Assembly (NCBI GenBank): GCA_016845305.1 | Contig: JAERSW010000037.1 | Location: forward strand, 1-37,641 | Source of the DNA: Acidimicrobiales bacterium | GTDB taxonomy: Bacteria; Actinomycetota; Acidimicrobiia; Acidimicrobiales; MedAcidi-G1 | Direction of reading: 5' to 3' | Length of the DNA: 37,641 bases | In this document: positions 2,865 through 22,630 of the stretch, in pieces | How positions within the stretch are numbered: position 1 is the stretch's first letter | Layout of the letters: each line of letters begins with the position of its first letter | The notes under the pieces: generated by a model | Told to the model about the DNA's origin: nothing | Database searches by the model: none | What the model saw: the letters and a program-made list of their open reading frames with translations, nothing else | Made by a program: the position numbers and the translations under genes

Positions 2865-2870
2865 GGCCCC

Positions 2871-3398: not shown

Positions 3399-3405
3399 CC
3401 GGCGC

Positions 3406-3615
3406 GTGATCGTCTCCACCGGCATCGGACTGCTGGCCCTCGTGGTCGGTCTGGTCGTCGGCTGGCCGGTGCTGGTGCTGCTGTCCATCATCTTCACCAT
3501 CGTGCAGCTGGTGATGCTGGCCGCCAAGACCGCCGTCGAGCGCAACGACGTGAAGGTCGCCGACCGGCTGGCCGCCAAGCAGGCCCGCCACCGACGCCCC
3601 GACGACACCGCCTGA
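3406..3615 (+). CDS. small two-helix membrane protein of unknown function
   Basis: 69 residues. Residues 4-25 and 26-46 are strongly hydrophobic (GIGLLALVVGLVVGW and VLVLLSIIFTIVQLVML) and form one hairpin or two membrane helices. They are followed by a charged, basic tail (KTAVERNDVKVADRLAAKQARHRR), likely cytoplasmic. I do not recognise a family. It is supported by its tight fit between two clear genes on the same strand and by the TAGGGT hexamer 7 bases before its GTG. It could be a membrane anchor or a transporter accessory, but nothing here shows which. Confidence 0.65.
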   Translation: MIVSTGIGLLALVVGLVVGWPVLVLLSIIFTIVQLVMLAAKTAVERNDVKVADRLAAKQARHRRPDDTA

Positions 3616-3653
3616 CCCCCCCGGGACCCCCCAACTGAGAAACGGAGCCACCC

Positions 3654-6428: not shown

Positions 6429-6898
6429 TCCTCCTCGTCGTCGACGGGATCGGGCGTGAGTGCCTCGGCGGCCACCATCGGGTTGGGGAACTCCTTCACC
6501 CCGCACACCTTCCCGTCCCGGAACCGCCACAGCGCGATGTAGGCGTTGCGGTAGGGCTTGCCGGTCGGGGTGGCCACCCCGTCGCTCTCGTACTCGACGA
6601 CGAGCAGGTCCGGATCGAGGCACTCGTGGACGGCGGTGAGGCGCAACGTGAACCGGAAGGTGCCCAGCCGGGGCGCCAGGTAGGCGCCGATCTCGCGGCC
6701 GCCCTCGAGGCGGACCGGCGGGTCGCCGAACGGCAGCTCGAGGACCCAGTCCGGGTCGTAGCAGGCGGTCAGCTCGCCGGCCCGTTCGGTGCCGTACAGC
6801 GAGACGACGTGCTCCAGCAGCGCCCGGTTCGCCGCCCGTCGCGCCACGCCGTCGTTTGGGGCGTCCTCCGGGGCGTCGTCCCGGGCGTCGGAGGGCAC
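6425..6898 (-). CDS. SnoaL/NTF2-like protein
   Basis: 157 residues with the alpha+beta barrel pattern of the NTF2 superfamily: an N-terminal helix (RRAANRALLEHVVSLYG), the segment ACYDPDWVLELPFGDPPVRLEG, and C-terminal strands (LLVVEYESDGVATPTGKPYRNAYIALWRF split at the cone mouth). Such proteins are polyketide cyclases, hydrolases, isomerases or small-molecule binders; the exact role cannot be read. GTG start, 7 bases after the aldolase stop, and 4-base overlap with the Rieske gene, so it belongs to the same translationally coupled operon. Confidence 0.85.
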   Translation of the reverse strand: MPSDARDDAPEDAPNDGVARRAANRALLEHVVSLYGTERAGELTACYDPDWVLELPFGDPPVRLEGGREIGAYLAPRLGTFRFTLRLTAVHECLDPDLLVVEYESDGVATPTGKPYRNAYIALWRFRDGKVCGVKEFPNPMVAAEALTPDPVDDEEE

Positions 6899-6905
6899 GG
6901 GAGGC

Positions 6906-7667
6906 TCAGTCCCGGTAGGAGGGGTCTTCGGCGTCGAGGATGGCCTTCAGCTCGGCGAAGTGGGCGACGCCCTGGTCGGTGAACCGTGCCCACATGCGCA
7001 CCACCGAGTCGGCCAGCTCGTCGTCCATGGGGCGCAGCTCCCGCCCGGTCGACAGGGCGATCACCGTCGTCCGACACGCCCGCTCCAGGAAGTACAGCTC
7101 CTCGAAGGCATGGGCCACCGTCTCGCCGACCACCGTGACGCCGTGGTTGCCCATCATCATCACCGAGTTGCCGACGAGGGCCTCGGCCACCCGGGCCCCC
7201 TCGGCCGGATCATCGGGCGGCCCGGCCATCTCCAGGTCGTAGACGGTGCGACCCCAGAAGCGGGCCGTGGCCTGGTCCAGCGGCGGGATCGACGGATCGG
7301 CCAGACCGCACAGGGCGGTGGCGTATGGCGGATGGCAGTGCAGCACGGCCCGAGCCGTCGGGATGCGGGCGTGGATGGCCCCGTGGATGCACCACGCCGA
7401 CGGGTCCGGGGCGTCGGGCCGGTCCATGGTCGACGGATCGTCGGCGTCGAGCAGGATCAGCTCGCTGGCCCGCACCAGGGAGAAGTGGCGCCACTTCGGG
7501 TTGCACAGGAACCGCTTGCCGTCGGGCGACACCGCGGCGCTGAAGTGGTTGGCCACCGACTCGTGCATGTCGAACCGGGCGGCCAGGCGGAAGGCCGCGG
7601 CCAGGTCCACCCGGACCTGTGCCTCGTCGAGTTCGGTCGGGACTCCGGGAGCGTCGAGCGTCGTCAT
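6906..7667 (-). CDS. class II aldolase/adducin family protein
   Basis: 253 residues, zinc-dependent class II aldolase fold. His110 and His112 (LHCHPPYATAL) and His175 (MGNHGVTVVG) fit the three zinc ligands, and the N-terminal NHFSAAV...FL resembles the substrate-phosphate loop region. Members cleave sugar phosphates or act on hydroxy acids; several actinobacterial ones sit in catabolic clusters with unknown substrates. The start ATG has CAGACT 6 bases upstream, a weak version of the leaderless -10 pattern. The preceding gene stops 19 bases earlier, so read-through from the hydrolase gene is also likely. Confidence 0.88.
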   Translation of the reverse strand: MTTLDAPGVPTELDEAQVRVDLAAAFRLAARFDMHESVANHFSAAVSPDGKRFLCNPKWRHFSLVRASELILLDADDPSTMDRPDAPDPSAWCIHGAIHARIPTARAVLHCHPPYATALCGLADPSIPPLDQATARFWGRTVYDLEMAGPPDDPAEGARVAEALVGNSVMMMGNHGVTVVGETVAHAFEELYFLERACRTTVIALSTGRELRPMDDELADSVVRMWARFTDQGVAHFAELKAILDAEDPSYRD

Positions 7668-7686
7668 GCGCGCAGTCTGGCCCGAG

Positions 7687-8922
7687 TCAGCCGGCCAGCG
7701 AAAGGGCGGCGTGCAGCAGCACCTCGGCTCCGACGGTGGCCTGGCCCGGTTCGATCGACTCGGCCTCGTTGTGCGACAGGCCGTCGAGGCACGGCACGAA
7801 CACCATGGCCGCCGGACCCCGCGACGCCACGTAGCAGGCGTCGTGGCCGGCGCCCGAGACGATCCGCTCGTGGGAGCGGCCCGTGGCCGCGGTGGCCGCG
7901 GCCACCGCCTCGACGCACGCCGGGTCGAACGCCACCGGCGGCGAGTCGTTGTCGACGGCGATCTCCCAGCCGCAGCCGTGTCGCTCGGCCGCCTCCGCCA
8001 CCAGGGCCCGGAGCTCGGCGTCCATGCCGTCGAGCACGTCGGCCTCCGGGTGGCGGATGTCGACCGAGAACCGGATGGTGGCCGGCACCGTGTTGGGTGA
8101 CACCGGCTCGGACCGGAACTGGGCGGGCGTGGCCCGGGCCCATGGCCCCCGCTCGGCGGCGATCCGGTACAGGCCGTCCAGCACCTCGGCCAGCGGTCGG
8201 GCCGGGTCGTGACGCAGGTCCATGGGCGTCGGCCCCGCGTGGGCCGGGTCGCCGGTCAGGGTCACGGTCAGCCACCGGAACCCCTGCACGCCGACCACCA
8301 CGCCGACCTCCGAACCGCTGGCCTCCAGGACCGGTCCCTGCTCGATGTGAAGCTCCAGGTAGGCGGCCAGCTCGCGGCCCAGGGGCAGGTCGCCGGACCA
8401 GCCGAGGCGGTCCAGCTCGGCGCCGACGGAGACGCCGTCCACGTCGGCCAGCGCCCGCACCTCGTCGAGGTCTGACGCCTCGGCCCACACCGCGGAGCCC
8501 ATCATCGACAGCGGGAAGCGCGACCCCTCCTCGTTGGTCCACACCGCCACCTCCAGCGGGGCGGCGGTCACGACCCCGTGCTCGGCCAGCGTGGACAGCA
8601 CCTCCAGACCCCCGAGCACTCCGTAGACGCCGTCGAAGCGGCCCCCGGTCGGCTGGGTGTCGAGGTGGCTGCCGAGGACCACCGGCGACCGGTCGGGGTC
8701 GGTGCCCTCGCGGCGGGCGAACAGGTTGCCGACGGCGTCGGTGGCCAGCGTGCAACCGATCGAGGTGGCCCACTCGACGAACAGGGCCCGGCCGTCGGCG
8801 TCATCGTCGGACAGTGCCTGGCGGTTGGAGCCGCCGGCGGCGGTGGCCCCCACCTCGGCCATGGCCATCAGCCGCGACCAGAGGCGGTCGCCGTCGACGT
8901 GCAGCCTGGAGGTTCCGTCCAT
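7687..8922 (-). CDS. M20 zinc amidohydrolase, N-carbamoyl-L-amino-acid hydrolase/allantoate amidohydrolase type
   Basis: 411 residues, normal length for the HyuC/AmaB/AllC group. Two-metal site residues are all present: GSHLDTQPTGGRFDG (His86 and Asp97), TNEEGSRF (Glu131, Glu132), LHIEQGP (His192) and GLSHNEAE (His384). The pattern SPNTVP and AGHDA, typical of this group, are also present. It hydrolyses N-carbamoyl or N-acyl amino acids or ureido acids in the cytoplasm. It lies 37 bases downstream of the ABC permease gene and is preceded by GGGGGAGA as ribosome-binding site, which suggests it acts on the imported compound. Confidence 0.9.
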   Translation of the reverse strand: MDGTSRLHVDGDRLWSRLMAMAEVGATAAGGSNRQALSDDDADGRALFVEWATSIGCTLATDAVGNLFARREGTDPDRSPVVLGSHLDTQPTGGRFDGVYGVLGGLEVLSTLAEHGVVTAAPLEVAVWTNEEGSRFPLSMMGSAVWAEASDLDEVRALADVDGVSVGAELDRLGWSGDLPLGRELAAYLELHIEQGPVLEASGSEVGVVVGVQGFRWLTVTLTGDPAHAGPTPMDLRHDPARPLAEVLDGLYRIAAERGPWARATPAQFRSEPVSPNTVPATIRFSVDIRHPEADVLDGMDAELRALVAEAAERHGCGWEIAVDNDSPPVAFDPACVEAVAAATAATGRSHERIVSGAGHDACYVASRGPAAMVFVPCLDGLSHNEAESIEPGQATVGAEVLLHAALSLAG

Positions 8923-8959
8923 GGGTGGTCTCCCCCGCCCGGCCGACGCCGGACCGTCG

Positions 8960-9901
8960 TCAGCGGCTCCGGAGCTTCGGGTCGAGCGCGTCCCGCAGGC
9001 CGTCGCCGATGAAGTTCACGCTCAGCACCGTCAGCGAGATCAGGGTGCCGGGGCCCACGACGCGCATCGGGGTGATGCTGATGAAGTCCTTGCCGTCGTA
9101 GAGCAGACGGCCCCAGGTCGGGAAGTCCGACGGGAAGCCGAGGCCCAGGAACGACAGCGCCGACTCGGTGATGATGGCCACGGCCATGCCGAGCGCGGCG
9201 GCCACCATGACCGGGCTCATGCAGTTGGGGAGGATGTGGCGGAAGATCACGTTGCGCTTCCGGGTCCCGATGCTGTGGGCGGCGGCCACGAACTCCTGCT
9301 GCTTGATGGTCAGCACCTCGCCGCGGACGACGCGCGCCGTCTGCATCCACGACGTCACGCCGATGATGAGCACGATCAGCATGAAGATGCCCTGCTCGGG
9401 GCCGAACGCGGCCCGCAGCGAGTCGCGGAAGAGCATGAAGATGACCATGAGCAGCGGCAGCACCGGCAGGGCCAGGAACATGTCGGTGAGCCGCATGAGC
9501 AGGCCGTCGAGACGCCGGTAGAAGCCGGCCAGGATGCCGACGGTGGTGCCCAGCGAGACGGCCAGACCCATGGCGGTGATGGCCACCAGCAGCGAGATGC
9601 GGCCACCCACCATCGAGCGGGCCACCATGTCGCGACCGAGGTTGTCGGTGCCCAGCGGGTGCTTCCACGACGGGCCCTGGTTGCGCATCTTGATGTCGGC
9701 CTCGACGGCGTCGTAGGGCAGCAGGAGCGGCCCCACGAAGCTGGCGATCGACACGAACAGCAGGACGATCAGGCCCGCCATGGCGCCCTTGTGCCGGCGG
9801 AACTGCCGCCACACGTCGCCCCACAGCGACCGGTGCACGACCTTCTCGTCGTCGGCCGCCTCGACGACACCGTCCACGGAGGTGGCCTCGGGCTCAGTCA
9901 T
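8960..9901 (-). CDS. peptide/nickel-type ABC transporter permease (DppC/OppC family)
   Basis: 313-residue inner-membrane permease. A first membrane helix near residues 40-60 (MAGLIVLLFVSIASFVGPLLL) precedes the periplasmic loop HPLGTDNLGRDMVARSMVGGRISL, a DppC hallmark. The cytoplasmic EAA loop reads EFVAAAHSIGTRKRNVIFRHILPN. Five to six helices can be traced. The start ATG overlaps the DppB-type gene by 8 bases (ATGACTGA), so the two permease halves are translationally coupled. Confidence 0.94.
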   Translation of the reverse strand: MTEPEATSVDGVVEAADDEKVVHRSLWGDVWRQFRRHKGAMAGLIVLLFVSIASFVGPLLLPYDAVEADIKMRNQGPSWKHPLGTDNLGRDMVARSMVGGRISLLVAITAMGLAVSLGTTVGILAGFYRRLDGLLMRLTDMFLALPVLPLLMVIFMLFRDSLRAAFGPEQGIFMLIVLIIGVTSWMQTARVVRGEVLTIKQQEFVAAAHSIGTRKRNVIFRHILPNCMSPVMVAAALGMAVAIITESALSFLGLGFPSDFPTWGRLLYDGKDFISITPMRVVGPGTLISLTVLSVNFIGDGLRDALDPKLRSR

Positions 9902-10904
9902 AGCGGATCCTCGGATCCAGGATGCCGTAGACGACGTCGGCCACCAGGTTGAAGAACACGGTCAGCGCGGCGACCATGAACGACAACGTCTGCACCATGG
10001 GCACGTCACCCATGTGGATGGCGCTGATGAGCAGGTGCCCGATGCCGTTGATGCGGAAGATCTGCTCGGTGATCAGGGCGCCGGCGAAGATGCCCGGCAC
10101 CTGCATGGCGATCAGGGTGACGACTGGGATGAGGCTGTTGCGGAGCACGTGGCGCACCAGCACCCGCTTCTCCTTGAGGCCCTTGGACCGGGCGGTACGG
10201 ACGTAGTCCTCGGACAGGTTGTCCAGCATCGACGACCGGGTGAACCGGCTGAGTGCCGCCGCGTTGAACATGGACAGCACGCCCACCGGCATGACCAACT
10301 GCTTGATCTGGGCGACCAGCGAGTCCCAGTCGGTGACCTCCAGGGTCGTGTCGTAGTACGACGGGAACCAGCCCAGATGCACGCTGAAGATCACGATGGC
10401 CAGCAGGCCGGTGAAGAAGGTCGGCACCGAGTAGCCGACCATCGAGAAGAAGGTGCCGACCTGGTCGAACACCGAGTACTGGCGGTAGGCGGAGATGACG
10501 CCGACCGGCACGGCGATGAGGATGCCGAAGATGAACGCCAGGCCCATGACCCAGGTGGTCTGGGGCAGCCGCTCGGCGATGGTCTCCACCACCGGGGCCC
10601 GCGACTGCCACGAGATGACCCGGGTGCGCTCGCCGCTGCCGACCTGCACGTTGAACATCGTCTCGAAGAGGCTGATCGGCTCGTTGATGAAGACCTGCTT
10701 CATCCACAGCACCCAGCGGGTGAGGAAGGGATCGTTGAAGCCGAGGGCCTCGCGGATCTGCTCGCGGACGTCCGGCGGAATGCTCAGCGGCAGCGAGGAC
10801 GTCGGGTCGCCGGGCGCCAGGTCGAGGATGGCGAAGATGACGAAGCTGATGGCGATCAGCGTGGGGACGGCGATGGTCAGGCGGCGCCCGATGAACCACA
10901 GCAT
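9894..10904 (-). CDS. peptide/nickel-type ABC transporter permease (DppB/OppB family)
   Basis: 336-residue inner-membrane permease. The N-terminus FIGRRLTIAVPTLIAISFVIFAILDLAPGDP is the usual first helix plus APGDP motif. The EAA loop reads DYVRTARSKGLKEKRVLVRHVLRNSLIPVVT. The protein has a long periplasmic loop (residues about 60-90) with RWVLWMKQVFINEP. The start is supported by a strong Shine-Dalgarno (GGAGGGGAGG). Between this gene and the lipoprotein gene upstream lies a large stem-loop that probably reduces permease relative to binding-protein expression. Confidence 0.94.
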   Translation of the reverse strand: MLWFIGRRLTIAVPTLIAISFVIFAILDLAPGDPTSSLPLSIPPDVREQIREALGFNDPFLTRWVLWMKQVFINEPISLFETMFNVQVGSGERTRVISWQSRAPVVETIAERLPQTTWVMGLAFIFGILIAVPVGVISAYRQYSVFDQVGTFFSMVGYSVPTFFTGLLAIVIFSVHLGWFPSYYDTTLEVTDWDSLVAQIKQLVMPVGVLSMFNAAALSRFTRSSMLDNLSEDYVRTARSKGLKEKRVLVRHVLRNSLIPVVTLIAMQVPGIFAGALITEQIFRINGIGHLLISAIHMGDVPMVQTLSFMVAALTVFFNLVADVVYGILDPRIRYD

Positions 10905-11002
10905 CCGTGCCTCCCCTCCTCGCCTCGTCGTTCGCCCCGTCGACCGGCCCTCTGGCCGACGGTCATTGAATCACGGATCCGAACGGGCCCGGAAAACGGA
11001 CC

Positions 11003-11049
11003 CGGTCGGGGAACCTCGCAGCACCCGGTGCCGCGAGGCTCCCCGACCG
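11003..11049 (-). terminator. stem-loop between solute-binding-protein and permease genes (partial terminator or 3'-end stabiliser)
   Basis: Two 17-base arms (11003-11019 and 11033-11049) pair with one G-U wobble. The 13-base loop contains a further small palindrome (GCACC-C-GGTGC). On the minus strand the hairpin starts 25 bases after the lipoprotein stop and is followed within a few bases by a short T run (CGTTTTCC). In many importer operons such a hairpin lets the binding protein be made in excess over the permeases. Confidence 0.75.
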
Positions 11050-11074
11050 AAGAGTCCTTCAGATCAGGTCCGGA

Positions 11075-12877
11075 CTAGTCCCGGCCCCAATCCTCGAGGT
11101 TCCACAGCTCGGCATCCCACGGGTTGAGCTTGACCCCGGTCAGCGAGTTGGCATGGGCCGACACGCTGCCGCGGTGGATCAGCGGGATGATCGAGTAGTT
11201 GCCGACCACCAGGTCGTTCAGGGCGATGGTGATCTCGTTGCGACGGTCGATGTCGGCCGTCTGGGCCAGCTCGGCGTGCAGGGCGTCGAACTCATCGCTC
11301 TGGAAGCGCTGCACGTTGCTGCCCTGCCAGTTGAGGTCCTTGCCGCTGATCTGCGAGGTCAGCCAGTTGCCCATGTAGGCCTGCGAGTCCACGCCGGCCG
11401 CACCGTTGGTGTACATCTGGATGTCGGCGTAGAACTTGCCGTAGGTGTCCGGGCTGGCCGGATCGCCACCGAAGAACACCGAGGCGTCGATGTTGCGCAG
11501 CTCGGTCTCGACGCCGATCTTGGCCCAGTCCTGCTTGATGAGCTCCTGCGTGGCCTGACGGACCGTGTTGGTCGACGTCTGGTACAGGATCTTCATCGGG
11601 ACGCCGTCGGGCGTCTCGCGGACGCCGTCACCATCGGTGTCGGCGTAGCCGGCGTCGTCCAGCAGCTGGTTGGCCAGGTCGATGTCCTGGGTCAGGCACT
11701 CGTCCTGGGCCGTCGACGTCTGGGCCGGCGGAGCGGGCCACACGTTGCAGGTCGGGCGACCGGCCTCGCCGTAGCCGACGTCCACCAGGGTCTGGCGGTC
11801 GATGGCGATCGACAGGGCCCGGCCGACCACCGGGTCGGTCAGGAACGGGTGCGGGTTGGTGCCGTCCAGCCACTCCGAACGGTCGTCGCCGAGCGACGGA
11901 TCCGGGTTGGTCTGGTTGACCATCAGGCGCTCGACCATGGTCGAGAAGGCCGAGACGACCTGGCCCTGGCCACCGGCCAGCATGCCGGCGAGGATCTCCG
12001 GCTCGACCTGGAGGTTCCAGGCGTAGTCGGCCTCACCCAACTCGAGGACCGAGCGGGCGTTCGACGGGGCGTCGCCGCCACCCTTGATGACGACCCGGCC
12101 GAAGTACGGCTTGCCCTCGGCGATGCCGCGGTAGTTCGGGTTCATCACGTAGACGGCGGTGTCGTTCGTGGCGAACGACTCGGCCATGAAGGCACCGGTA
12201 CCGATCGGAGCGAAGTTCTGGTCCGAGCACTCGGCCGAGGCCGCGCCGACGCAGTCGCCGAACTGGGCCCGCGAGATGACCGGCATCGAGTTCGACACGA
12301 ACGGCACGTACGGGAACGGCGTCGCCTCGGCGAAGGTCACCACGACGGTGAGGTCGTCGGTCGCCTCGACGGAGGTCACGCCCTCGAAGTCCGACGCCCG
12401 GGCGCAGCCGGTGTCGGGGTGCGAGCAGTACTCCCACGAGAAGACCACGTCGTCGGAGGTCACCGGGGTGCCGTCCGAGAACAGCAGGCCCTCCTGGAGG
12501 GTCCAGGTGATCGACGTGAGGTCCTCGGACACGCCGCCGTTGCCGACGGTCGGGATCTCGGTGGCCAGCGCCGGGATCAGCACACCGGCGTCGTCGAACT
12601 CGGCCAGCGGCTCGAGGATGACGGTTCCGGCGTCACGGTCCTTCCAGCCACCCGACAGGTACGGGTTCAGCGTGGACGGGGCCTGCCAGTACAGGATGGT
12701 CACGGTGCCACCCTCGCCGGCCACCGGACCGGCCGGAGCGGCCGTGGTGGTCGGAGCGGCGGTCGTCGCCGGAGCGGCGGTGGTGGCCGGAGCGGCCTCC
12801 TCATCGCTGCCGCAGGCACCTGCGACCAGGGTCAGGGCCGCCAGGACGGCGACCAGACGGACGAACTTCTTCATCAT
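11075..12877 (-). CDS. family 5 extracellular solute-binding lipoprotein of a peptide-type ABC importer
   Basis: 600 residues. A lipoprotein signal peptide (MMKKFVRLVAVLAALTLVAGAC) ends at Cys22, then a linker rich in Ala, Thr and Pro (about 28-50) spaces the domain from the membrane. The mature part has family-5 features: LNPYLSGGWKDRDAGTVILEPLAEFD, TWTLQEGLLFSDGTPVTSDDVVFSWEY and, near the C-terminus, AIDRQTLVDVGYGEAGRPT. It captures peptides or similar oligomeric or amide compounds outside the cell. Two adjacent ATG codons are possible; the second (12874) is better spaced from GAGAGGGGAA. It has its own 127-base upstream region with a CRP-type site. Confidence 0.95.
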   Translation of the reverse strand: MMKKFVRLVAVLAALTLVAGACGSDEEAAPATTAAPATTAAPTTTAAPAGPVAGEGGTVTILYWQAPSTLNPYLSGGWKDRDAGTVILEPLAEFDDAGVLIPALATEIPTVGNGGVSEDLTSITWTLQEGLLFSDGTPVTSDDVVFSWEYCSHPDTGCARASDFEGVTSVEATDDLTVVVTFAEATPFPYVPFVSNSMPVISRAQFGDCVGAASAECSDQNFAPIGTGAFMAESFATNDTAVYVMNPNYRGIAEGKPYFGRVVIKGGGDAPSNARSVLELGEADYAWNLQVEPEILAGMLAGGQGQVVSAFSTMVERLMVNQTNPDPSLGDDRSEWLDGTNPHPFLTDPVVGRALSIAIDRQTLVDVGYGEAGRPTCNVWPAPPAQTSTAQDECLTQDIDLANQLLDDAGYADTDGDGVRETPDGVPMKILYQTSTNTVRQATQELIKQDWAKIGVETELRNIDASVFFGGDPASPDTYGKFYADIQMYTNGAAGVDSQAYMGNWLTSQISGKDLNWQGSNVQRFQSDEFDALHAELAQTADIDRRNEITIALNDLVVGNYSIIPLIHRGSVSAHANSLTGVKLNPWDAELWNLEDWGRD

Positions 12878-12927
12878 TTCCCCTCTCTGGGACGCACGAG
12901 TCCACCCGCGATCCCACCAATTGGATC

Positions 12928-12943
12928 TGTGACTTTTATCACT
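12928..12943 (-). promoter_or_regulatory. candidate CRP/FNR-family binding site upstream of the lipoprotein gene
   Basis: On the minus strand AGTGA-N6-TCACA, matching 9 of the 10 conserved bases of TGTGA-N6-TCACA. It lies 51-66 bases before the lipoprotein start, in an AT-richer stretch beside the 8-base palindrome CCAATTGG (12917-12924). No regulator gene is in the window. Confidence 0.45.
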
Positions 12944-13004
12944 TCGGGACCTAACGATCCAGCCCGCGGCAATGACAATTCCGTGACGACCGCCGAAACC
13001 GCCC

Positions 13005-13993
<989 letters not shown>

Positions 13994-13994
<1 letters not shown>

Positions 13995-15085
13995 CACGCG
14001 TCTTCTCCCTCGGCGGATGCTCCCCCGACCGGTTCTCCCCAGTCGGCGCCCTCCGCGCCGAGGCCACGGCCGTCGTCCAACCAGCACGCCACGCTCCGGC
14101 CGCCGACGTCGGTCAGCACCGGGTTCTCGCTGTGGCACCGATCGAAGGCGTGCGGGCAGCGGGGCGCGAACGAGCAACTGTCCGGCTCGCTGCGCAGGTC
14201 GGGCGGCTGGCCCAGGATGTTGACCAGCCGGGTGCCGCGCGAGTTGGCCGACGGCAGCGAGGCCAGCAGGCCGTGGGCGTAGGGGTGCCGGGGCTGGGCG
14301 TACAGCTCGGCCACCGGGGCGTCCTCGACGATCTGGCCGCCGTACATGACCAGCACCCGGTCGACGAGGCCGGCCACCACGCCGAGGTCGTGGGTGATCC
14401 AGATCACGGCCATGCCCAGCTTGGAGCGGAGCTCCTTGACCAGCTCCAGGATCTGGGCCTGGATGGTCACGTCGAGGGCCGTGGTCGGCTCGTCGGCCAC
14501 GAGGACCTGCGGGTTGCAGGCCAGGGCGATGGCGATCATCACCCGCTGGCGCATGCCGCCCGACAGCTCGTGCGGATAGCACCGCAGGCGGTCCTCGGCG
14601 GCGGGGATGCCCACCAGCTGGAGGAGCTCGAGGGCCCGGGCCCACATGGCCTTCTTCGAGCCCGGGTCGTGGACCTCGAGGGACTCCACGATCTGGCGGC
14701 CCACGGTGACCACCGGGTTCAGCGACGTCATCGGGTCCTGGAAGATGAAGCCGACCTTGCCGCCGCGGACGGCCCGCAGGTCGTCGAGGTCCATGGCCAG
14801 GAGGTCCTCGCCGCCGAACACGGCCTCGCCGGCGGCGATGTCGCCGGGCGGCGACGGGATGAGCCGCAGCAGCGACATCATCGTCACGCTCTTGCCCGAG
14901 CCGCTCTCGCCGACCACGCCGAGCACCTCGCCGTCGGACAGGTCGAACGACACCCCGTTGACGGCGTGCACGGTGCCGTCCTGGGTGTGGAAGCGGGTGG
15001 TCAGGTTCCGCACCGACAACGCCGGCGTGGCGCCGGCCGTCGGCGCGTCGGACGGCGGGGCCTCGGTCATGGTGGGGGGTGTCAT
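13994..15085 (-). CDS. peptide-type ABC transporter ATPase (DppD/OppD family)
   Basis: 363 residues. Walker A GESGSGKS (59-66), signature LSGGMRQR, Walker [15 protein letters not shown], and the C-terminal Cys-rich peptide-transporter segment ([14 protein letters not shown]) are all present. The first 20 residues are a loose Pro/Ala-rich lead, and a second in-frame ATG six codons in is possible. Start at 15085 has GGAG about 12 bases upstream. It follows the M20D amidohydrolase gene by 15 bases, so hydrolase and ATPases share a transcript. Confidence 0.94.
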
Positions 15086-15100
15086 GTGGGTGGGCTCCGT

Positions 15101-16246
15101 TCAGCCGCCGAGGCGGTCCCAGACGTCCTGTTCGGCCATGTCGATGATGGTCCAGGCCATGCCCAGGGCGCCATCGCGCAGGGCCGACTCGCCGCCCGGC
15201 TCGACGGTCGCCGCCGCGAACTCGGGCTGGTGGTTGACGGCATCACCACAGTCCATGCCCAGCATGGGGTGGATCGACGGGACGACCTGGCTGACGTTGC
15301 CCATGTCGGACGATCCGCCGGCCCGGGCCGCGCCATCGCTGATCGGCATGGGTCGACCCAGCGCCTCCGAGTTGGCGGCGTACAGGTCGACCATGACCCC
15401 GTTGTTGGCCATGTTGTCGTAGCCGTGCGCCGTCGGCGCCCACTCGAACCGGCAACCCGTGGCGATGGCGGCCGCCTCGAAGCAGGCCTTCACCTTGGGC
15501 ACCAGCTCGTCGAGGCGCTCCACCGTCTGGGACCGGATCAGCCACTCGGACTTCGTGTACGACGGCACCACGTTCACCGCGTCGCCGCCGTGGGACACCT
15601 TGCAGTGCACCCGATCGCCGTCGACCATGGCCTGACGCAGCGTCGAGATGTTGACGTAGGCCTGCACGAAGGCGTCGAGCGCGTTGATGCCCTCCTCGGG
15701 GGCGAACGCGGCGTGCGAGTCCTTGCCGAAGAACTCCACGTCATAGTGCTGGCAGGCCATGAACGACGGATCGATCTCGTCGTAGGGCCCGGGGTGGACC
15801 ATCATCGACGCCGCCGCGTCCTCGAAGGCCCCGGCGTCGATCAGCTCGACCTTGCCGCCGCCACCCTCCTCGGCCGGCGTGCCCAGCACGGTGACCCGGA
15901 TGCCGAGTTCCTCGACCAGCGGGGCGAGGGCCACCCCGGCGCCGACGGCCGACGTGGCGATGACGTTGTGGCCGCAGGCGTGGCCGACCTCGGGCAGGGC
16001 GTCGTACTCGCAGCAGATGACCACCCGGGGTCCGCTGGTGCCGACGGTGGCCTCGAAGGCGGTGTCGAGGCCATGACTTGGGTAGGTGACGTCGAAGCCG
16101 TTGTCGCCGAGGAAGGCGCTGATCCGCGCCGACGCCTCGAACTCCTCGTACCCCAGCTCGGGGTTCTCGTACATCCATCGGGACAGGTCGCGCAGCTGCT
16201 GCTCGACGCCGTCGAAGGCCTGCTGGGCCGCGTGCTTGGTCGACAT
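15101..16246 (-). CDS. M20D-type amidohydrolase/peptidase (aminoacylase or AbgB-like)
   Basis: 381 residues of the M20 dimetal amidohydrolase family. The metal-binding region reads [14 protein letters not shown] (residues 81-94, Cys91 and His93), followed by PAEEGGGG (Glu126, Glu127). This is the M20D pattern of enzymes cleaving N-acyl amino acids, amidobenzoyl-glutamate or IAA conjugates. An expected dimerisation-domain segment ([21 protein letters not shown]) is present. It starts the importer transcript: TACGTT ends 7 bases before the ATG, without Shine-Dalgarno. Its place next to a peptide-type importer suggests it hydrolyses what is imported. Confidence 0.9.
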
Positions 16247-16253
16247 GCGGCGG

Positions 16254-16259
16254 AACGTA
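16254..16259 (-). promoter_or_regulatory. -10-like hexamer of a leaderless promoter, M20D/ABC operon
   Basis: TACGTT on the minus strand, 7 bases before the ATG at 16246. It suggests that this operon starts here rather than by read-through from the racemase-like gene 70 bases upstream. Confidence 0.45.
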
Positions 16260-16316
16260 CCAGTCGGGTCCCGCCGATCGGCCAGCCCGCCCGGGACCCG
16301 CTGCGACCGGTCCGAC

Positions 16317-17147
16317 CTACAGGCCGCCCAGGAGGGCGCCGGGCGCGAAGGTCGGGGTGACGCCGAGGGACCGGAAGATGGCCCAGTACAGGGTGGTGTC
16401 GGACGCGATCACCGGTCGGCCCACCGCGGCCTCCATGGCCTCGATGCGGTGCAGGCACCGCTGGGCGAGGCCGTCGTCGCGCCGCCAGTTGGGCATGCCG
16501 TTGATGACCACCACCTCGGCGTCCGGGGCCCGCTCGACGGCCCGGACCACCGACTCGACGGCGTCGGCCTGCGGGAAGATCCACCGCCGGGCGTTGACCT
16601 CCTCCTGGTCGGGGTACATGCCGAGGTCGACGAAGTTGAGGGCCTCGAGGACGTCGATGCCGGCGCTGCGCAGGAAGCCGGCCAGCCCGTCGCGCCAGTC
16701 CGGCCAGTAGTAGACGGAGTCGAGCACCACCTTCTCGGCGCCGAGGGCGCGCACGGCGTCGACGAGGGTCATGCCGGCCATGTGGAACGGCATGCCGTAG
16801 GTGTCGGCCATGCGGTCGCAGAAGGCCCGGATGTCGGCGGCGTCGGTGCCGTTGCAGTGCACCCAGTTGGAGCCGACCTGCCCGACCACGTCGGCGCCGT
16901 TGTTGGCCATGCAGTGGGCGTACTCCTCCAGCAGGTGGAAGTTGTCGGACCGCTGGGAGAGCTCGTGGGCGTACACCGGGGCGTGCAGCATCCGGCCGTG
17001 GACGCCGACGGTGGGCGGCGCCATGCGCAGGAAGTCCGAGGGGGCGGCGTCAAAGTCGTGCGGCGGCGAGGTGAAGCCCACCTGGTGGGGGAACAACTTC
17101 TTGTCCGGGTCGTCCCAGACGGTCGGACGGACGTAGGCGTCGGTCAT
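16317..17147 (-). CDS. Asp/Glu racemase superfamily protein (maleate isomerase/arylmalonate decarboxylase-like) lacking the catalytic Cys
   Basis: 276 residues. Residues 119-160 (GMPFHMAGMTLVDAVRALG...KVVLDSVYYWPDWRDGLAGFL broken by short loops) and 212-256 (VVVINGMPN ... GRPVIASDTTLYW) follow arylmalonate decarboxylase and maleate isomerase closely. The residue matching catalytic Cys188 is Asn216, and the N-terminal Cys position of the racemases and isomerases is Gly92 (VVGQVGSNW). Neither Cys is present, so cofactor-free proton transfer by the known mechanism is not expected. Function is open: a binding protein, or an enzyme with other chemistry. It is 52 bases downstream of the thiolase gene. 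Confidence 0.75.
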   Translation of the reverse strand: MTDAYVRPTVWDDPDKKLFPHQVGFTSPPHDFDAAPSDFLRMAPPTVGVHGRMLHAPVYAHELSQRSDNFHLLEEYAHCMANNGADVVGQVGSNWVHCNGTDAADIRAFCDRMADTYGMPFHMAGMTLVDAVRALGAEKVVLDSVYYWPDWRDGLAGFLRSAGIDVLEALNFVDLGMYPDQEEVNARRWIFPQADAVESVVRAVERAPDAEVVVINGMPNWRRDDGLAQRCLHRIEAMEAAVGRPVIASDTTLYWAIFRSLGVTPTFAPGALLGGL

Positions 17148-17199: not shown

Positions 17200-18378
17200 T
17201 CAGGATTCCACGCTCAGGATCAGGCCGCTGGTGGGCACGCCGCTGCCCGAGGTGACGAGGACGTCGTCAGCCCCCTCGACCTGGTTGACGCTGGTGCCCC
17301 GGATCTGGCGGACGGCCTCGGCGATGCCGTTCATGCCGTGGATGTAGGCCTCGCCGAGCTGTCCGCCGTTGGTGTTGATCGGCAACCGGCCCCCCATCTC
17401 GATGGCGCCGTCGGCGATGAAGTCCTTCGCCTCGCCGGGGGCGCAGAAGCCGAACTCCTCGAACTGGGGCAGGACCAGCGGCGTGAAGTGGTCGTAGAGC
17501 ATGGCCGTCCGGACGTCCGACGGGCCGAGCCCCGAGTCGGCCCACAGCCGGCGGGCCACCACGCCCATCTCGGGTAGGCCGGTGATGTCGTCGCGGTAGT
17601 ACGACCGCATCATCCACTGGTCGGCGGCCACGCCCTGGGTGGCGGCGGCGACCACGGCGGGCCGCTGGGCCAGGTCGCGGGCCCGATCGACGGTGGTGAC
17701 CAGCAGGGCCTGCCCGCCGTCGCTCTCCTGGCAGCAGTCCAGGAGGCGGATCGGGTCGGCGATCATGCGGCTCTCCTGGTGGTCGGCCAGCGTGATGGGC
17801 CGACCGTGGAAGAACGCCGCCGGATTGTTGGCGGCGTGGCGCCGGTCGGCCACGGCGATGCGACCGAAGTCCGCCGAGGTGGCCCCGTAGGCGTGCATGT
17901 ACCGGGTCGCGAAGATGGCCGCCCACTGCGCCGGGGTGACCAGCCCGAACGGCGTGCTCCACGAGTAGGAGACGTCGTCGGCCTCCTCGCCGGTGTGGTG
18001 CCCGCTCACCCCGGAACCGAAGCGCCGCCACGACCGCTCGTTGAAGGCCCGGTAGCAGAGCACCATCTCGGCGGCGCCGGTGTGGACGGCCATGGCCGCC
18101 ATGGCCACCGTCCCGCAGCCGCCGCCCCCGCCGTGGGGGACCATGGAGAAGAACCGCATCTCGTCGATGCCGAGGTTGCGGGCCACCTCGATCTCCTGGT
18201 TGCGCTCCATGCTGAAGATCGACATGCCGTCCACCTCGGACGGGTCGACGCCGGCGTCCGCGCACGCGGCTCGGCAGGCCTCGATGGCGAGGCGCATGGG
18301 CGTCCGGCCCGAGTCCTTGGAGAACTCGGTGGCGCCGATGCCGACGATGGCGGTGCGGCGGGCGAACGACGAGGTCAT
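17200..18378 (-). CDS. SCP-x/Ltp2-type thiolase-fold enzyme (lipid-transfer thiolase family)
   Basis: 392 residues of the thiolase superfamily branch that includes SCP-x thiolases and the steroid side-chain aldolase Ltp2. N-terminal AIVGIGATEFSKDSGRTPMRLAIEA and the sequence PHGGGGGCGTVAMAAMAV, with nucleophile-position Cys88, are clear. The C-terminal active-site loop reads NTNGGQLGEAYIHGMNG, with His in place of a typical Pro/Ser-rich GASG loop. Its ATG overlaps the stop of the MaoC-DUF35-MaoC gene by 4 bases (ATGA). Ltp2 needs a DUF35 partner for activity, and the upstream gene supplies one. Thiolytic and retro-aldol cleavage are both possible. Confidence 0.9.
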   Translation of the reverse strand: MTSSFARRTAIVGIGATEFSKDSGRTPMRLAIEACRAACADAGVDPSEVDGMSIFSMERNQEIEVARNLGIDEMRFFSMVPHGGGGGCGTVAMAAMAVHTGAAEMVLCYRAFNERSWRRFGSGVSGHHTGEEADDVSYSWSTPFGLVTPAQWAAIFATRYMHAYGATSADFGRIAVADRRHAANNPAAFFHGRPITLADHQESRMIADPIRLLDCCQESDGGQALLVTTVDRARDLAQRPAVVAAATQGVAADQWMMRSYYRDDITGLPEMGVVARRLWADSGLGPSDVRTAMLYDHFTPLVLPQFEEFGFCAPGEAKDFIADGAIEMGGRLPINTNGGQLGEAYIHGMNGIAEAVRQIRGTSVNQVEGADDVLVTSGSGVPTSGLILSVES

Positions 18379-19820
18379 GCCGGCTCTCCGTCGCCGGTCG
18401 GCCGGTCCCCCGTCGGGAGGACCACGGTGGCCGTGCCACGGGCGTGGGATCCGATCGTCCGGTCGCCGCGCAGGACCGCCGCGGTGAAGGCCAGTTCCAA
18501 ACGGCCGGTGGCGGCGTCGACCTCGTCGGCCGTCCCCTCCAGGACGCTGCCGTCCAGAACCAGCACGTCGCCGGGGTGGGTGGGCACGCCGAGGCCGACG
18601 CGCACCGAGTCGAGCACGGCCCCGGGACCGGCCCAGTCGCCGATCCAGCGGGTCACCAGGCCGGTGGTGGTGAGGATGTTCATGAAGACGTCGGGCAGGC
18701 CGCGGGCCCTCGCCGCCTCCGGGTCGTGGTGGACGTCCTGGGGGTCGCGGGTGGCGACGGCGCCGCCGGTGACGAGCTCGACGGTCACGTCGACCGGTTC
18801 GACGGGCAGGCGATCCCCGGCGACGACCGTGTCCGCCGGCCGCGGCTGGTCGCGCCGGGGCGTCACCGCCGGTCGGAAGCGGTGGAGGGTGACGTCCTCG
18901 TGCGTGTCGTGCCAGTCGAGCCGAAGGGGCATGCCCACCTCGAGGCGTTCGGGCGCGACGCCGACCACGTTGCTGATGAGGCGCACCCCCTCGGCCAGGT
19001 CGACGAGGCCGACCACGTTGGGATCGGGGAAGGCGGGGTGCGGCGGATGGCGGGTGACGGTCCAGCTGTGGAGGGTGGCGTCGCCGGAGGCCACGACCCA
19101 GTCGTACTCGACGCCGTCGGGACCCATCGGGGCCGGCTCGCCGGTGTCGGGATCGGCCAGGCGTGGCGGATGGACGAGGCGCCCCGACGGGAACCGCTGG
19201 ATGCGCAGCTCGTGGTGGCGCATGCCCTCCCAGTGCCAGGCCTGGTCGGCGTTGCAGCGGGGCCGGGGGCGCTCCGGCCGTTCGGCGGCGCCGTCGGGCT
19301 CCGCGGTGCGGCCGGTGCCGGGCCGGAACTTGAACACGGTGAAGCGCATCGTGCCCACCGACGCCCCCGCCTCGTCGACGAAGTCCGACTCGGTGGTCAC
19401 GAAGTGGCCCTCGCCCAGCGCCGTCGTCTTGCGCTCGGAGATGGCGGCCAGGGTGGTGGTCCGCGTCAGGTGGTCGCCGGGTCGCAGGAGGCGGCCGTAG
19501 GCGTGGTCGGAGTTGGTGGCCACCACCCCGGAGAACCCGGCGTCGGACAGCAGCCCGTAGGCCCGGTGGTGGGGGTCGTCGGTGGTGGCCGTGGCCCCGA
19601 CGCCCCGCTCCATGCCGACCATGGACCAGACGTCGAGCATGGCCGGCGGGGCGACGGCGCCGTCGAGGACGGCCGGGTCGGTGGCCCCCATGGCGGCGCA
19701 CCACAGGCGGATCGCCTCGGCGTCGACGGGGACCGGGGCGCGGGTCGCCGCGCCGACCCCGCCCACCAGGGCCATCAGCCCGGCCTCGTCCAGGACCCCC
19801 TCGTCACCCACGGTCCCCAT
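18375..19820 (-). CDS. MaoC-DUF35-MaoC fusion protein (ChsH2-ChsH1-like enoyl-CoA hydratase)
   Basis: 481 residues with three parts. Residues 1-170 are an N-terminal hot-dog domain of the FAS1-dehydratase type (RPGDHLTRTTTLAAISERKT). Residues 185-315 are a DUF35 OB-fold (HHELRIQRF...GRLVHPPR...SWTVTRHPPHPAF). Residues 340-481 are a second hot-dog domain with the hydratase motif RDPQDVHHDPEAA, giving the catalytic pair Asp359/His364. In mycobacterial cholesterol degradation ChsH2 (MaoC-DUF35) and ChsH1 (MaoC) are separate subunits; here both are in one chain. The zinc-ribbon cysteines usual at the start of DUF35 are missing (QRFPSG where QRCxxCG is expected). The start is 1 base after the stop of the CoA-transferase gene. 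Confidence 0.88.
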   Translation of the reverse strand: MGTVGDEGVLDEAGLMALVGGVGAATRAPVPVDAEAIRLWCAAMGATDPAVLDGAVAPPAMLDVWSMVGMERGVGATATTDDPHHRAYGLLSDAGFSGVVATNSDHAYGRLLRPGDHLTRTTTLAAISERKTTALGEGHFVTTESDFVDEAGASVGTMRFTVFKFRPGTGRTAEPDGAAERPERPRPRCNADQAWHWEGMRHHELRIQRFPSGRLVHPPRLADPDTGEPAPMGPDGVEYDWVVASGDATLHSWTVTRHPPHPAFPDPNVVGLVDLAEGVRLISNVVGVAPERLEVGMPLRLDWHDTHEDVTLHRFRPAVTPRRDQPRPADTVVAGDRLPVEPVDVTVELVTGGAVATRDPQDVHHDPEAARARGLPDVFMNILTTTGLVTRWIGDWAGPGAVLDSVRVGLGVPTHPGDVLVLDGSVLEGTADEVDAATGRLELAFTAAVLRGDRTIGSHARGTATVVLPTGDRPTGDGEPA

Positions 19821-19821
19821 C

Positions 19822-22158
19822 TCAGCCTCTCGGGATCCCGACCGGCCAATCGCCGGTCACCCCGTCGGCCAGCAGGCGGGCGTACCAGGAACCGTCGTCG
19901 CCCAGGGCGGCCAGCGTCGCCTCGGTGTGCTGGCCCAGCGTGGGAGCCGGACCGCCGAGGGGCAGGTGGGCGCCGTCGACGTGGAACGGGAACGACGGGT
20001 ACGGCGTCGACCCGGTGACCGGATGGTCCATCCACTGGTGGAAGCCGCGGGCCTCGAGCTGCGGGGAGGACAGCACCTCGTTGGGGTGGTGGCAGAAGGC
20101 GGCCGGCACCCCGTCCCGCCACAGGACTCCAGCGGCGTCGGTGCCGTCCCGGGTGGCCGCCCAGTCGGACAGGGCGGCCTCCAGCCGGTCCGGTCCGTCG
20201 CCCGGGTCACCACCGACGACCCCGGCCAGGGCGGCCAGCTGCGCCCCCGTGGCCACGCTGACGGCCAGCCAGTCGTCATCGCCGGCGGTGCGGAACAGGC
20301 CCTGGAGGAGCGCCTCGTCGGACCGGTTCCCCGTGCGTTCCAGCAGCCGCCCCGTGGCCGACCACTCCACCACCTGCTCGGCGGTGGCCTGCAGGGCGGC
20401 GTCCATCAGTGGCACCTCGACGAGCTGGCCGAGGCCGGTCCGCTCGCGGTCGAGCAGGGCCAGCACCACGGCGAAGGCCGACTGCATGGCGGCCAGGTAG
20501 TCGACCGGTCCCATGGGCACCAGCAACGGCCCGTCCGGGTGGCCGGTCCGGTTGGCGAGGCCGGCCACCTGTTCCATGGTCATGGCGAACCCGACCCGTT
20601 CGCGCCACGGGCCGTCCAGGCCGTAGGCCGGGGCCCGGAGGTACACGGCACGGGGGTTGCGCTCGTGGAGTCGCTCCCAGGTCAGGCCCCACTGCTCGAC
20701 GACCCGGGGGCTGAAGTTCTCGACCACCACGTCGGCGTCGTCGACCAGGCGGTCGAGGACCTCGCGGCCGGCCTCGGTCGAGAGGTCCAGGGCGACGGCC
20801 TCCTTGCCGGCGTTGGCCCCGTGGTACCCGGGGGACCACTCCCACAGGAGGGGTCGCCGGAAGCCGCTGGCCCAGCGCATGCCGTCGAGGCGGACGTGCG
20901 ACTCGACCTTGACCAGATCGGCGCCGAGGACCCGCAACAGGTTGGTGGCCACCGGCCCGGCCCAGAAGGCCGACAGGTCGACCACCCTCACGCCGGCCAA
21001 CGGCCGTGCCGGGTCGTCGCCCAGGCGGAGGGACCCGTCCCCCACCGGTTCGGGCGGACTGCCCTCGTCGCCGAGGGTCGGGGCGGGCGCCGGGTCGGCC
21101 AGGCGGACCTCGCCGAAGCGGGGTGCCGGTCGGGGGGCCCGGAACCCGGCCGGATGGTCGACGAACACGCCGCGCTCGACCAGGTGGTCGTAGCCCACCA
21201 GCTGGTCGGCGGTGCCGACCGGCCCCACCGGGATGCGGAAGGCGCTGGCCAGGTCGACCAGCTCGTCGACGGTGTGCTCCCGGGTGAAGGCGTGGATCCG
21301 CTCCCACACCTCGTGGCGGCGGACCATGCGGCCGTCGAAGACGGCGAGGTCCTCCTCCTCGGCGAGGTCGGGGGCGCCGACCATGGCGCAGAAGTCCTGC
21401 CACTGCTGGCCGGTGACGCAGCAGAAGCCGACCATGCCGTCCGAGGCCGGTTCGATGGACGGGATCATGATGACCCGACCGGCCCGATGGTCGGGGTCGA
21501 AGGTGGCGAACAGCTGCCGGTGGGTCTGGAAGCAGTGGGCCATGGCCTCGTACTGCGACAGGTCGAGGTGCACGCCCTTCCCGGAGGTCCGGGCGGCCAG
21601 GGTGGCGGCCAGCACCACCGGCGCGGCCATCGACGCGCCCACGAAGTCGCCCAGGTCGCCTCCGACCGACACCGGTTCCTCGCCGGGCACGCCCCGCAGC
21701 TCGGTGGAGCCGACCACCGCCTGGAGGACGAAGTCGTTGGCCGGCCGGTCGGCCCACGGACCGGTCGTCCCGAAGCGGGTGAGGGTGGCCACCACGGCAG
21801 CCGGGTTGTCGGCCCGCAGGTCGTCGGGGGCGATGCGAAGGGCCCGGGCGTCGGCCGGGTCGTGGTCGTCGAGGACCAGGTCGGCCCCGGCCACCAGGCC
21901 CCGCAGCCGGTCACGGCCTCCGTCGGCGGCCAGGTCCACGACCGCCGAGCGCTTGCCGCCGTTGAGGTGGTGGAACCAGGGGGCGTCGGCACCGTCGGGG
22001 ATCGGCACGCCGGAGGCGCTCCGGTGCCGGAACGGGTCGCCAGCCGGCGACTCGACCTTGCAGACGTCGGCGCCGGCGTCGACCAGCATGCGGCCCACGA
22101 AGGGAGCCATGGTCCGGCTGCCCAACTCGAGCACGCGGAGGCCGGCCAGCGGCGTCAC
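19822..22158 (-). CDS. tandem type III CoA-transferase (two fused CaiB/BaiF domains)
   Basis: 778 residues, two full family III CoA-transferase domains (about 1-385 and 386-778), each starting with the family opening: PLAGLRVLELGSRTMAPFVGRMLVDAGADVCKVE and PLAGVRVVDLSAFWAGPVATNLLRVLGADLVKVE read with small gaps. In formyl-CoA transferase the catalytic Asp lies in a VDVSMQDA-like segment. The second domain keeps it as EVPLMDAAL (Asp586); the first has DLSQYEAMA (Glu204). The enzyme would activate an acid by CoA exchange; known homologues work as interlocked dimers, and here one chain could mimic the dimer. The GTG start is 4 bases after the GNAT stop. Confidence 0.93.
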   Translation of the reverse strand: MTPLAGLRVLELGSRTMAPFVGRMLVDAGADVCKVESPAGDPFRHRSASGVPIPDGADAPWFHHLNGGKRSAVVDLAADGGRDRLRGLVAGADLVLDDHDPADARALRIAPDDLRADNPAAVVATLTRFGTTGPWADRPANDFVLQAVVGSTELRGVPGEEPVSVGGDLGDFVGASMAAPVVLAATLAARTSGKGVHLDLSQYEAMAHCFQTHRQLFATFDPDHRAGRVIMIPSIEPASDGMVGFCCVTGQQWQDFCAMVGAPDLAEEEDLAVFDGRMVRRHEVWERIHAFTREHTVDELVDLASAFRIPVGPVGTADQLVGYDHLVERGVFVDHPAGFRAPRPAPRFGEVRLADPAPAPTLGDEGSPPEPVGDGSLRLGDDPARPLAGVRVVDLSAFWAGPVATNLLRVLGADLVKVESHVRLDGMRWASGFRRPLLWEWSPGYHGANAGKEAVALDLSTEAGREVLDRLVDDADVVVENFSPRVVEQWGLTWERLHERNPRAVYLRAPAYGLDGPWRERVGFAMTMEQVAGLANRTGHPDGPLLVPMGPVDYLAAMQSAFAVVLALLDRERTGLGQLVEVPLMDAALQATAEQVVEWSATGRLLERTGNRSDEALLQGLFRTAGDDDWLAVSVATGAQLAALAGVVGGDPGDGPDRLEAALSDWAATRDGTDAAGVLWRDGVPAAFCHHPNEVLSSPQLEARGFHQWMDHPVTGSTPYPSFPFHVDGAHLPLGGPAPTLGQHTEATLAALGDDGSWYARLLADGVTGDWPVGIPRG

Positions 22159-22162
22159 GGCG

Positions 22163-22630
22163 TCAGAGGTCGAGGCGGTAGACGTTGGTGGTCCGCTCCT
22201 GGAAGCCGAGACGCCGGTAGAGCCGGTTGGCGGCCTCGCGCGATGGCCGCGACGTCAGGTCGACGGTGGTGGCGCCCTCCGACCGGGCCCGCTCGATGGC
22301 CGCCCGGTTCAGGGCCTCGCCGACGCCGCGACCGCGGGCCGCCTCGTCGACGACCACGTCCTCGATCCAGGCCCGCAGGCCGGTCGGGATGCGGAACAGG
22401 GCCAGGGTCATGCTGCCCAGGATGGCCGAACCGTCGGCGGCTCCGGCCGTTCCCGCGTCCTCGGCCACCAGCAGCACCGAGGCATCCGAGCCGACGATGG
22501 CCGCCAGGGCATCGGCGTCAGGCGGCGGGCTGGAGCTGGACAGCTGCGGCACCAGGCGGGCCATGGCGACCACGAGGCCGGGCTCGACCTCGGTGACCTC
22601 GCGGACCACGCATCCCGGGGAGTCGTCCAT
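22163..22630 (-). CDS. GNAT-family N-acetyltransferase
   Basis: 155 residues, single GNAT domain. The acetyl-CoA binding motif A reads DVVVDEAARGRGVGEAL (around residues 93-109), followed by a typical RPSREAANRLYRRLGF (motif B). The acceptor is unknown; close relatives modify small amines or protein N-termini. It is the first gene of the catabolic transcript: TAGCCT lies 8 bases before the ATG and there is no Shine-Dalgarno, so the mRNA is probably leaderless. Translation then runs into the CoA-transferase gene 4 bases after the stop. Confidence 0.9.
   Translation of the reverse strand: MDDSPGCVVREVTEVEPGLVVAMARLVPQLSSSSPPPDADALAAIVGSDASVLLVAEDAGTAGAADGSAILGSMTLALFRIPTGLRAWIEDVVVDEAARGRGVGEALNRAAIERARSEGATTVDLTSRPSREAANRLYRRLGFQERTTNVYRLDL

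Follow-up and report, generated by a model that had tools for sequence, protein, structure and literature searches.

The stretch of DNA analysed here (hereafter the window) comprises 37,641 nucleotides of an Acidimicrobiales bacterium (contig JAERSW010000037.1 of GenBank assembly GCA_016845305.1), and it contains a run of genes for a putative hydratase-aldolase in which two hydratase chains are joined into one. The genes lie on the minus strand and are read in the order GNAT acetyltransferase, tandem coenzyme A (CoA)-transferase, MaoC-OB-MaoC fusion and thiolase-like protein. The GNAT gene, assigned by Pfam (22163-22630), stands directly upstream of the CoA-transferase gene (19822-22158), a 778-amino-acid open reading frame with two units of the class III (CaiB/BaiF) family PF02515 CoA_transf_3. 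The fusion (18375-19820) has 481 residues, and the thiolase-like protein, a predicted Ltp2-type retro-aldolase of thiolase fold (17200-18378), has 392. The last two genes share four bases, ATGA at 18375-18378, where the stop TGA of the fusion overlaps the start ATG of ltp2. Together with three other fused loci, L008 (genome G395), L043 (G187) and L044 (G246), the window (G000) makes up what we call the lineage; the GNAT gene is present in L008 too and finds no match within the stretches from G187 and G246.

Three parts can be recognized in the fusion. Pfam assigns PF13452 to residues 28-157, PF01796 OB_ChsH2_C to residues 241-304 and, below cut-off, MaoC to residues 342-409, while among solved structures residues 21-177 match the MaoC domain of ChsH2 (4wnb_A), 186-320 the DUF35 domain of ChsH2 (6ok1_B) and 349-427 ChsH1 (4wnb_B; the ChsH1 and ChsH2 names are swapped in PDB entry 4w78 relative to 4wnb). 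Together with the alignment, these matches place the N-terminal, ChsH2-like MaoC (hot-dog) domain at 19296-19760, the ChsH2-like DUF35/OB domain, which is without the C4 zinc cysteines, at 18861-19265, and the C-terminal, ChsH1-like MaoC domain at 18411-18833, all on the minus strand. Asp359 (18744-18746) and His364 (18729-18731) of the C-terminal domain align with positions 29 and 34 of the 4wnb_B chain, counted along the alignment, and the dyad is kept in every protein aligned, 24 in all, of which 11 are fused and 13 are split. According to the accessible part of PMC11321319, the MaoC domain of ChsH2 is inert and binds the ring, its His being replaced by Tyr; in the window Val51 stands where split ChsH2 proteins carry this Tyr, and the roughly 10 residues that follow are absent from the window and L008, as they are from one split protein (L042). 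The order of an inert MaoC, a DUF35 and an active Asp/His MaoC domain is thus that of ChsH1-ChsH2, with one chain in place of two and no C4 zinc finger, and as far as these alignments go the fusion is a ChsH1-ChsH2 hydratase in all respects except chain number and zinc site.

The partner gene belongs, by its best curated family, to the NF005892/PRK07855 "lipid-transfer protein" group (650.3 bits, cut-off 469). It matches PF22691 Thiolase_C_1 and, below cut-off, the Pfam thiolase N-terminal family, and its best solved structure is 6ok1_A (567 bits), the Ltp2 chain solved with the DUF35 domain of ChsH2. In TcLtp2 the base is Tyr294 of a YDHF motif and the acid is Tyr344, as given in the accessible part of PMC12329534, and these align with Tyr295 (in Tyr295-Asp-His297-Phe) and Tyr345 of the window's protein. 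The position of the thiolase nucleophile Cys is taken by Gly84; of the four other paralogues that this genome has above the cut-off, three keep the Cys. With its score over the cut-off, both Tyr present and the nucleophile replaced, the protein is by score and residues classed as an Ltp2-type aldolase. A first-pass annotation made from the letters alone had given the coordinates and strand of the module genes, the four-base overlap, the tandem CoA-transferase ahead of the fusion, the single-chain ChsH2-ChsH1 order with Asp359 and His364 in its last domain and the Ltp2-type partner, and all of these agree with our results.

That annotation had also put the module forward as a candidate for an undescribed system, perhaps a general machine for some other branched acyl substrate, which the divergence of the aldolase does not bear out. 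Among 19 other Ltp2s 122 columns are invariant; the window departs from them in 6 and the lineage in 8, three of the latter uniformly (A86G, E208D and T379S), and five other groups given the same treatment touch 3 to 19 of 117-133 invariant columns. The lineage's Ltp2 is therefore no more divergent than those of other lineages, and the module is the known hydratase-aldolase in a fused form, not a new kind of system: the one-chain architecture and the genomic setting are new, and the chemistry is of the known kind.

We identified the one-chain form in ten of 395 genomes sampled from the class (G000, G187, G246, G320, G382, G252, G322, G036, G096 and G123, G322 being a one-contig genome of 3.6 Mb), 109 of the 395 matching the fusion at 1e-10. 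One further fused locus, L008, lies on the contig JAAZXY010000007.1 of a metagenome-assembled genome; its proteins lie closest to those of the window, and the contig scan that gave it used peptide patterns reaching close relatives only. A one-chain order recurring in 11 loci of different genomes is not due to chance, and ltp2 adjoins the fusion in all 11. Elsewhere the genes are split, in the order dehydrogenase-ChsH2-dehydrogenase-ChsH1-Ltp2 or a variant thereof, and two loci (L150 and L061) have a separate DUF35 gene. In a tree of 26 Ltp2 proteins, from which L047 (start not called) and nine distant proteins of the 35 aligned are excluded, the fusion partners of 10 of the 11 loci form one side of a single branch (support 99/99; 100% of 200 bootstrap trees), which points to a single fusion event, nested among the Ltp2 proteins that accompany split operons.

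Across 396 genomes of the phylum there are 21 with a match at 1e-40, of which the window's genome is the only one with a single chain from end to end (at most four candidates were scored per genome). Among 72,556 plasmid records 56 match the fusion and six cover 80% of the query; the four of these six that were examined are all two genes, two by annotation and two by gene calls made here. The literature search found MaoC-MaoC fusions without DUF35 and no ChsH2-ChsH1 fusion in the accessible parts of its sources, among them PMC11321319, PMC12329534, PMC12502768 and PMC10398937; most subscription papers lie outside its reach, so that this absence is unproved. The ratio of nonsynonymous to synonymous substitution rates (dN/dS, NG86) between the window and L008 is about 0.19 for ltp2, 0.34 for the fusion and 0.35 for the CoA-transferase gene; it is below 1 in all nine comparisons made (0.09-0.52, the highest being the fusion in the window versus L043), and the aldolase has the lowest value of the three genes in every genome pair. 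By this measure ltp2, the fusion and the CoA-transferase gene look like working genes.

The CoA-transferase scores 564.6 bits against PF02515 over its two units. Asp553 of the second unit is kept in 12 of 12 aligned relatives, and Asp171 of the first in 6 of 11, with Glu in the other 5; we take this motif position to be that of the catalytic Asp of class III CoA-transferases. Glu204/Asp586 had been considered as the catalytic residue and was dropped, relatives having mostly Glu at the second place. The best curated family is succinate-glutarate CoA-transferase (302.7 bits, far below the cut-off of 750, with the best stretch in the first unit), and succinyl-CoA as the CoA donor is a guess. The best solved match is PDB 9fn0, a subunit of benzylsuccinate CoA-transferase; enzymes of this class have two units that could form a pseudo-heterodimer, whereas the window has both in one chain.

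A tandem CoA-transferase gene stands directly upstream of the fusion in all four lineage loci, and a tandem CaiB gene upstream of two of the 13 split operons (L053 and L059; 35-38% identical); these neighbourhood counts cover fetched stretches of 12-32 kb, and a CaiB gene further away was scored absent. In four genomes of the genus g34 an ortholog of the CoA-transferase (48-50%) lies no more than 0.8 kb from a FadE29-like dehydrogenase gene, away from the fusion. A search of the class at 1e-120 found CoA-transferase matches in 38 of 390 genomes, the ten with the fusion and 28 more; the window's family has six genomes without the fusion, and none of these gave a match at this threshold.

Of the known systems, ChsH1-ChsH2-Ltp2 (igr operon; PDB 6ok1, 4wnb and 4w78), the hydratase-aldolase with which actinobacteria remove the last three carbons of steroid side chains, shares with the window the three hydratase domains, the order within ChsH2, the ChsH1 dyad, the aldolase with its paired Tyr and an aldolase gene directly downstream. 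Unlike it, the window has one chain, a zinc-less DUF35 and a CoA-transferase in front, with no acyl-CoA dehydrogenase gene in the window and no ring-gene markers in the window's genome; judged by gene content the module is not an igr-type operon, dehydrogenase genes being absent from it. A further system is CtShy-CtSal, the proteobacterial bile acid hydratase-aldolase, whose structure is probably PDB 9myr. There, too, a DUF35 domain links a MaoC hydratase to an aldolase of thiolase fold; the accessible parts of PMC11321319 and PMC12329534 describe as its own features a single homodimeric MaoC domain with DUF35 in front, a C3H1 zinc finger, Tyr/Cys chemistry and C5 side chains. ChsH3, CasD and CasQ, which act on C5 steroid side chains, resemble the window's fusion in having two MaoC domains per chain and differ in being without DUF35, as far as the accessible part of PMC11321319 goes.

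We consider it probable that the locus encodes a one-chain ChsH1-ChsH2 hydratase and an Ltp2 retro-aldolase working on a C3 side chain; gene and domain order, the kept catalytic residues, the single fusion origin and co-occurrence lead us to infer the following reactions, complex and substrate. The tandem CaiB protein would load CoA, perhaps from succinyl-CoA, onto an acid with a ring-bearing 2-methylacetic (isopropanoyl, "C3") side chain, and an acyl-CoA dehydrogenase coded elsewhere would yield the alpha,beta-enoyl-CoA. Within the fusion, the inert ChsH2-like half would hold the ring while the ChsH1-like half, through Asp359 and His364, adds water to the 2-methyl-enoyl-CoA, and the product would pass to Ltp2, held by the DUF35/OB part. 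There Tyr295 may take the hydroxyl proton and Tyr345 protonate the enolate, giving a ring ketone and propionyl-CoA, which would exit via the methylmalonyl-CoA route. Joining the MaoC halves would fix their ratio at 1:1, and with its overlapping start ltp2 would be translated with the fusion, helping to pull an unfavourable hydration forward. Our first guess at the substrate is a polycycle of steroid size that loses its C3 side chain here and whose rings are not degraded by the host.

Several observations weigh against this reading. All four zinc cysteines of DUF35 are lost in the window, L008, L043 and L044 (4 of the 11 fused rows), and the zinc finger of CtShy shapes the aldolase cleft (PMC12329534, accessible part). 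The cysteines are kept in the seven other fused proteins and in 12 of 13 split ones. A split ChsH2 of Nocardia farcinica (L041, 9911-10843) has lost them as well, so that the site may have disappeared more than once, outside the fused lineage too; since the zinc-cysteine and loop losses are both seen in split proteins, neither alone marks a departure from the split systems. A structure prediction of the fusion from an alignment of two sequences (window and L008) reached a predicted local distance difference test score (pLDDT) of 38 and a predicted template modelling score (pTM) of 0.28, and the proposed fold and DUF35-Ltp2 interface are read from sequence. The fusion is patchy, occurring in three of nine genomes of the window's family. 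No match to five FadE28/29-type dehydrogenases was found in the window at 1e-3, and methylmalonyl-CoA mutase genes were seen in two of the four lineage loci, 14 kb off in the window. Lack of conservation of the gene set was to refute the first-pass annotation; this fails for the fusion-ltp2 pair and applies in part to the CoA-transferase, which keeps its place within the lineage, and no CoA-transferase was found near the fusion in the fetched stretches of the seven other fused loci. Finally, models of the steroid-ring markers KshA_C and HsaC (at 1e-3) and KstD (at 1e-20) match in none of the four lineage genomes, three of which are 96-98% complete, so that a steroid pathway would stop there after removal of the side chain. 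This also extends to the whole genome of the window the first-pass remark that no steroid gene is nearby.

The lack of ring markers speaks for the main rival, which we regard as possible yet less likely: the same chemistry on a non-steroid ring acid with an isopropanoyl side chain, for instance of p-menthane or cyclohexane type, the module being a general propionyl-releasing cutter. Activation by a CoA-transferase in place of a ligase fits it, and a plasmid of Rhodococcus rhodochrous carries an Ltp2 that falls in the same subfamily (651 bits against a cut-off of 469) behind two CaiB, two MaoC and one DUF35 gene, with neighbours nearest to 4-oxocyclohexanecarboxylate 2-dehydrogenase (574.9 and 284.8 bits, below the cut-off of 1000). 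KstD models, too, match these flavin adenine dinucleotide (FAD) enzymes (425 bits, under the cut-off), which leaves the Rhodococcus pathway itself unproved. Against the rival, the window's Ltp2 shares 58-66% identity with the Ltp2s from 13 split operons and 59% with its Rhodococcus counterpart, and as noted above the lineage touches invariant columns no more than others do. Ibuprofen degraders provide a precedent, in that their ipfDE-encoded, thiolase-type retro-aldolase step frees propionyl-CoA from a ring-bearing 2-methylacyl-CoA; there, unlike here, the substrate is an aromatic diol made by a dioxygenase (PMC9195938, accessible part). The protein taken as IpfD by its position (L063, 7255-8442) is only 31% identical to the window's Ltp2, and a literature search on p-menthane with Ltp2 found nothing useful.

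We would further entertain, as a somewhat unlikely history, that the single-fusion clade left steroid catabolism in one lineage and has become a stand-alone, CoA-transferase-driven cutter of propionyl-CoA from isopropanoyl-bearing rings of non-steroid natural products, with a nearby propionyl-CoA-to-succinyl-CoA route returning CoA to the transferase.

It is improbable that the host degrades whole steroids with ring genes that are too divergent to match or absent from a draft genome. Some fused loci outside the lineage do lie in genomes with ring-gene matches (among the ten fusion genomes, KstD-like in six, KshA_C in five and HsaC-like over 200 bits in three, the HsaC and KstD matches all lying under their cut-offs), but KshA_C also matches in fusion-free genomes and the lineage has none of the three markers. 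In G187 and G246 a FadA5-type thiolase (608 bits, cut-off 515) stands beside a second FadE29/28-like pair; the FadA5 model NF005889 was rejected as a steroid marker, being over cut-off in 27 of 33 genomes, and the genomes of the window and L008 fall below it (375 and 370 bits). Very improbable is a true thiolase, a synthetic (condensing) enzyme set or a decaying relic, which could draw on the thiolase fold with its sub-threshold N-terminal match, the zinc site and loop lost in the fusion and the fusion's dN/dS of up to 0.52, but is contradicted by Gly84 in place of the Cys that most paralogues keep, by both catalytic Tyr and by dN/dS values below 1.

The reading that we prefer, a one-chain hydratase with an Ltp2 retro-aldolase for a C3 side chain, calls for a dehydrogenase coded elsewhere, and the window's genome holds a candidate pair. 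Its top FadE29-like match (53%) and its top FadE28-like match (44%) are coded side by side on another contig (C127, 6997-9311). In a tree of 32 FadE29-like proteins, the C127 protein falls in a 100/100 clade with proteins of G246, G187, the four g34 genomes and G123, so that the clade is present in eight of the ten fusion genomes. No member of it was found in the 11 fusion-free genomes that this search covered, three judged by tree and eight by score (best at most 211 bits versus 426-495 for clade members); fusion-free genomes on the tree are G060, G374, G209 and G244, and G096 has two of its four close proteins on it. The clade thus appears to go with the fusion, a link that is suggestive only because the eight genomes come from three groups of relatives.

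For propionyl-CoA, the left end of the window holds a possible outlet. MeaB (1-768) lies beside the genes for the B12-binding protein (810-1226) and large subunit (1226-2809) of methylmalonyl-CoA mutase, both on the minus strand and about 14 kb from ltp2; a MarR regulator (2871-3395) and an acetoacetate-decarboxylase-like protein (3654-4421) follow on the plus strand. These genes, spanning 1-4421, are 13-17 kb from ltp2 in the window, and the same genes are 1.2-5.6 kb from it in G246 (mutase genes 2.7-5.6 kb); the G187 contig stops beside ltp2, and the L008 stretch stops before outlet genes could show. The neighbourhood fits propionyl-CoA as the product.

A one-chain ChsH2-ChsH1 protein offers a simple equimolar handle on a hydratase-aldolase that is useful for steroid synthons and whose substrate channelling is still to be settled. 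The occurrence of the module in genomes without ring markers also provides a clear test between Ltp2 serving non-steroids and organisms that only trim steroid side chains.

The rest of the window and the compared loci provided further observations. After ltp2 an unbroken minus-strand run (5610-17147) encodes an arylmalonate-decarboxylase/EutA-like protein, an M20 amidohydrolase, OppD, OppF, a family 5 binding protein, two permeases, an allantoate-amidohydrolase-type M20 protein, a class II aldolase, a SnoaL-like protein and a Rieske protein, and its gene content suggests a route for ureides or amino acids. L008 has the same run between the first and the second M20 gene, where its stretch ends, and lacks the first gene. 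A supply of amide conjugates to the module by the M20 and Opp genes was considered and dropped, the second M20 protein scoring as an allantoate amidohydrolase (538.8 bits, cut-off 452) and other genes standing there in G246.

C127 (L096) also carries a second thiolase-OB pair at 638-2313, in which a PF01796 protein accompanies a "lipid-transfer protein" of PRK06059 (680 bits against a cut-off of 424), and L099 (G246) and L101 (G187) have an order that resembles it by gene starts. In L061 (8952-26000, plasmid of R. rhodochrous GD02) two CaiB, two MaoC, DUF35 and Ltp2 genes lie beside cytochrome P450, Baeyer-Villiger monooxygenase-like and 4-oxocyclohexanecarboxylate-dehydrogenase-like genes, a possible non-steroid Ltp2 pathway. 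L150 (2397-13878) has separate MaoC, DUF35 and MaoC genes and then Ltp2; FadE29/28-like genes precede them, and the other strand nearby carries a tandem CaiB and a P450 gene. Rv3169-family proteins lie 2-12 kb from ltp2 in the window (4465-5613), in L050 (717-1829) and, by a similar start only, in L055 (5384-6481).

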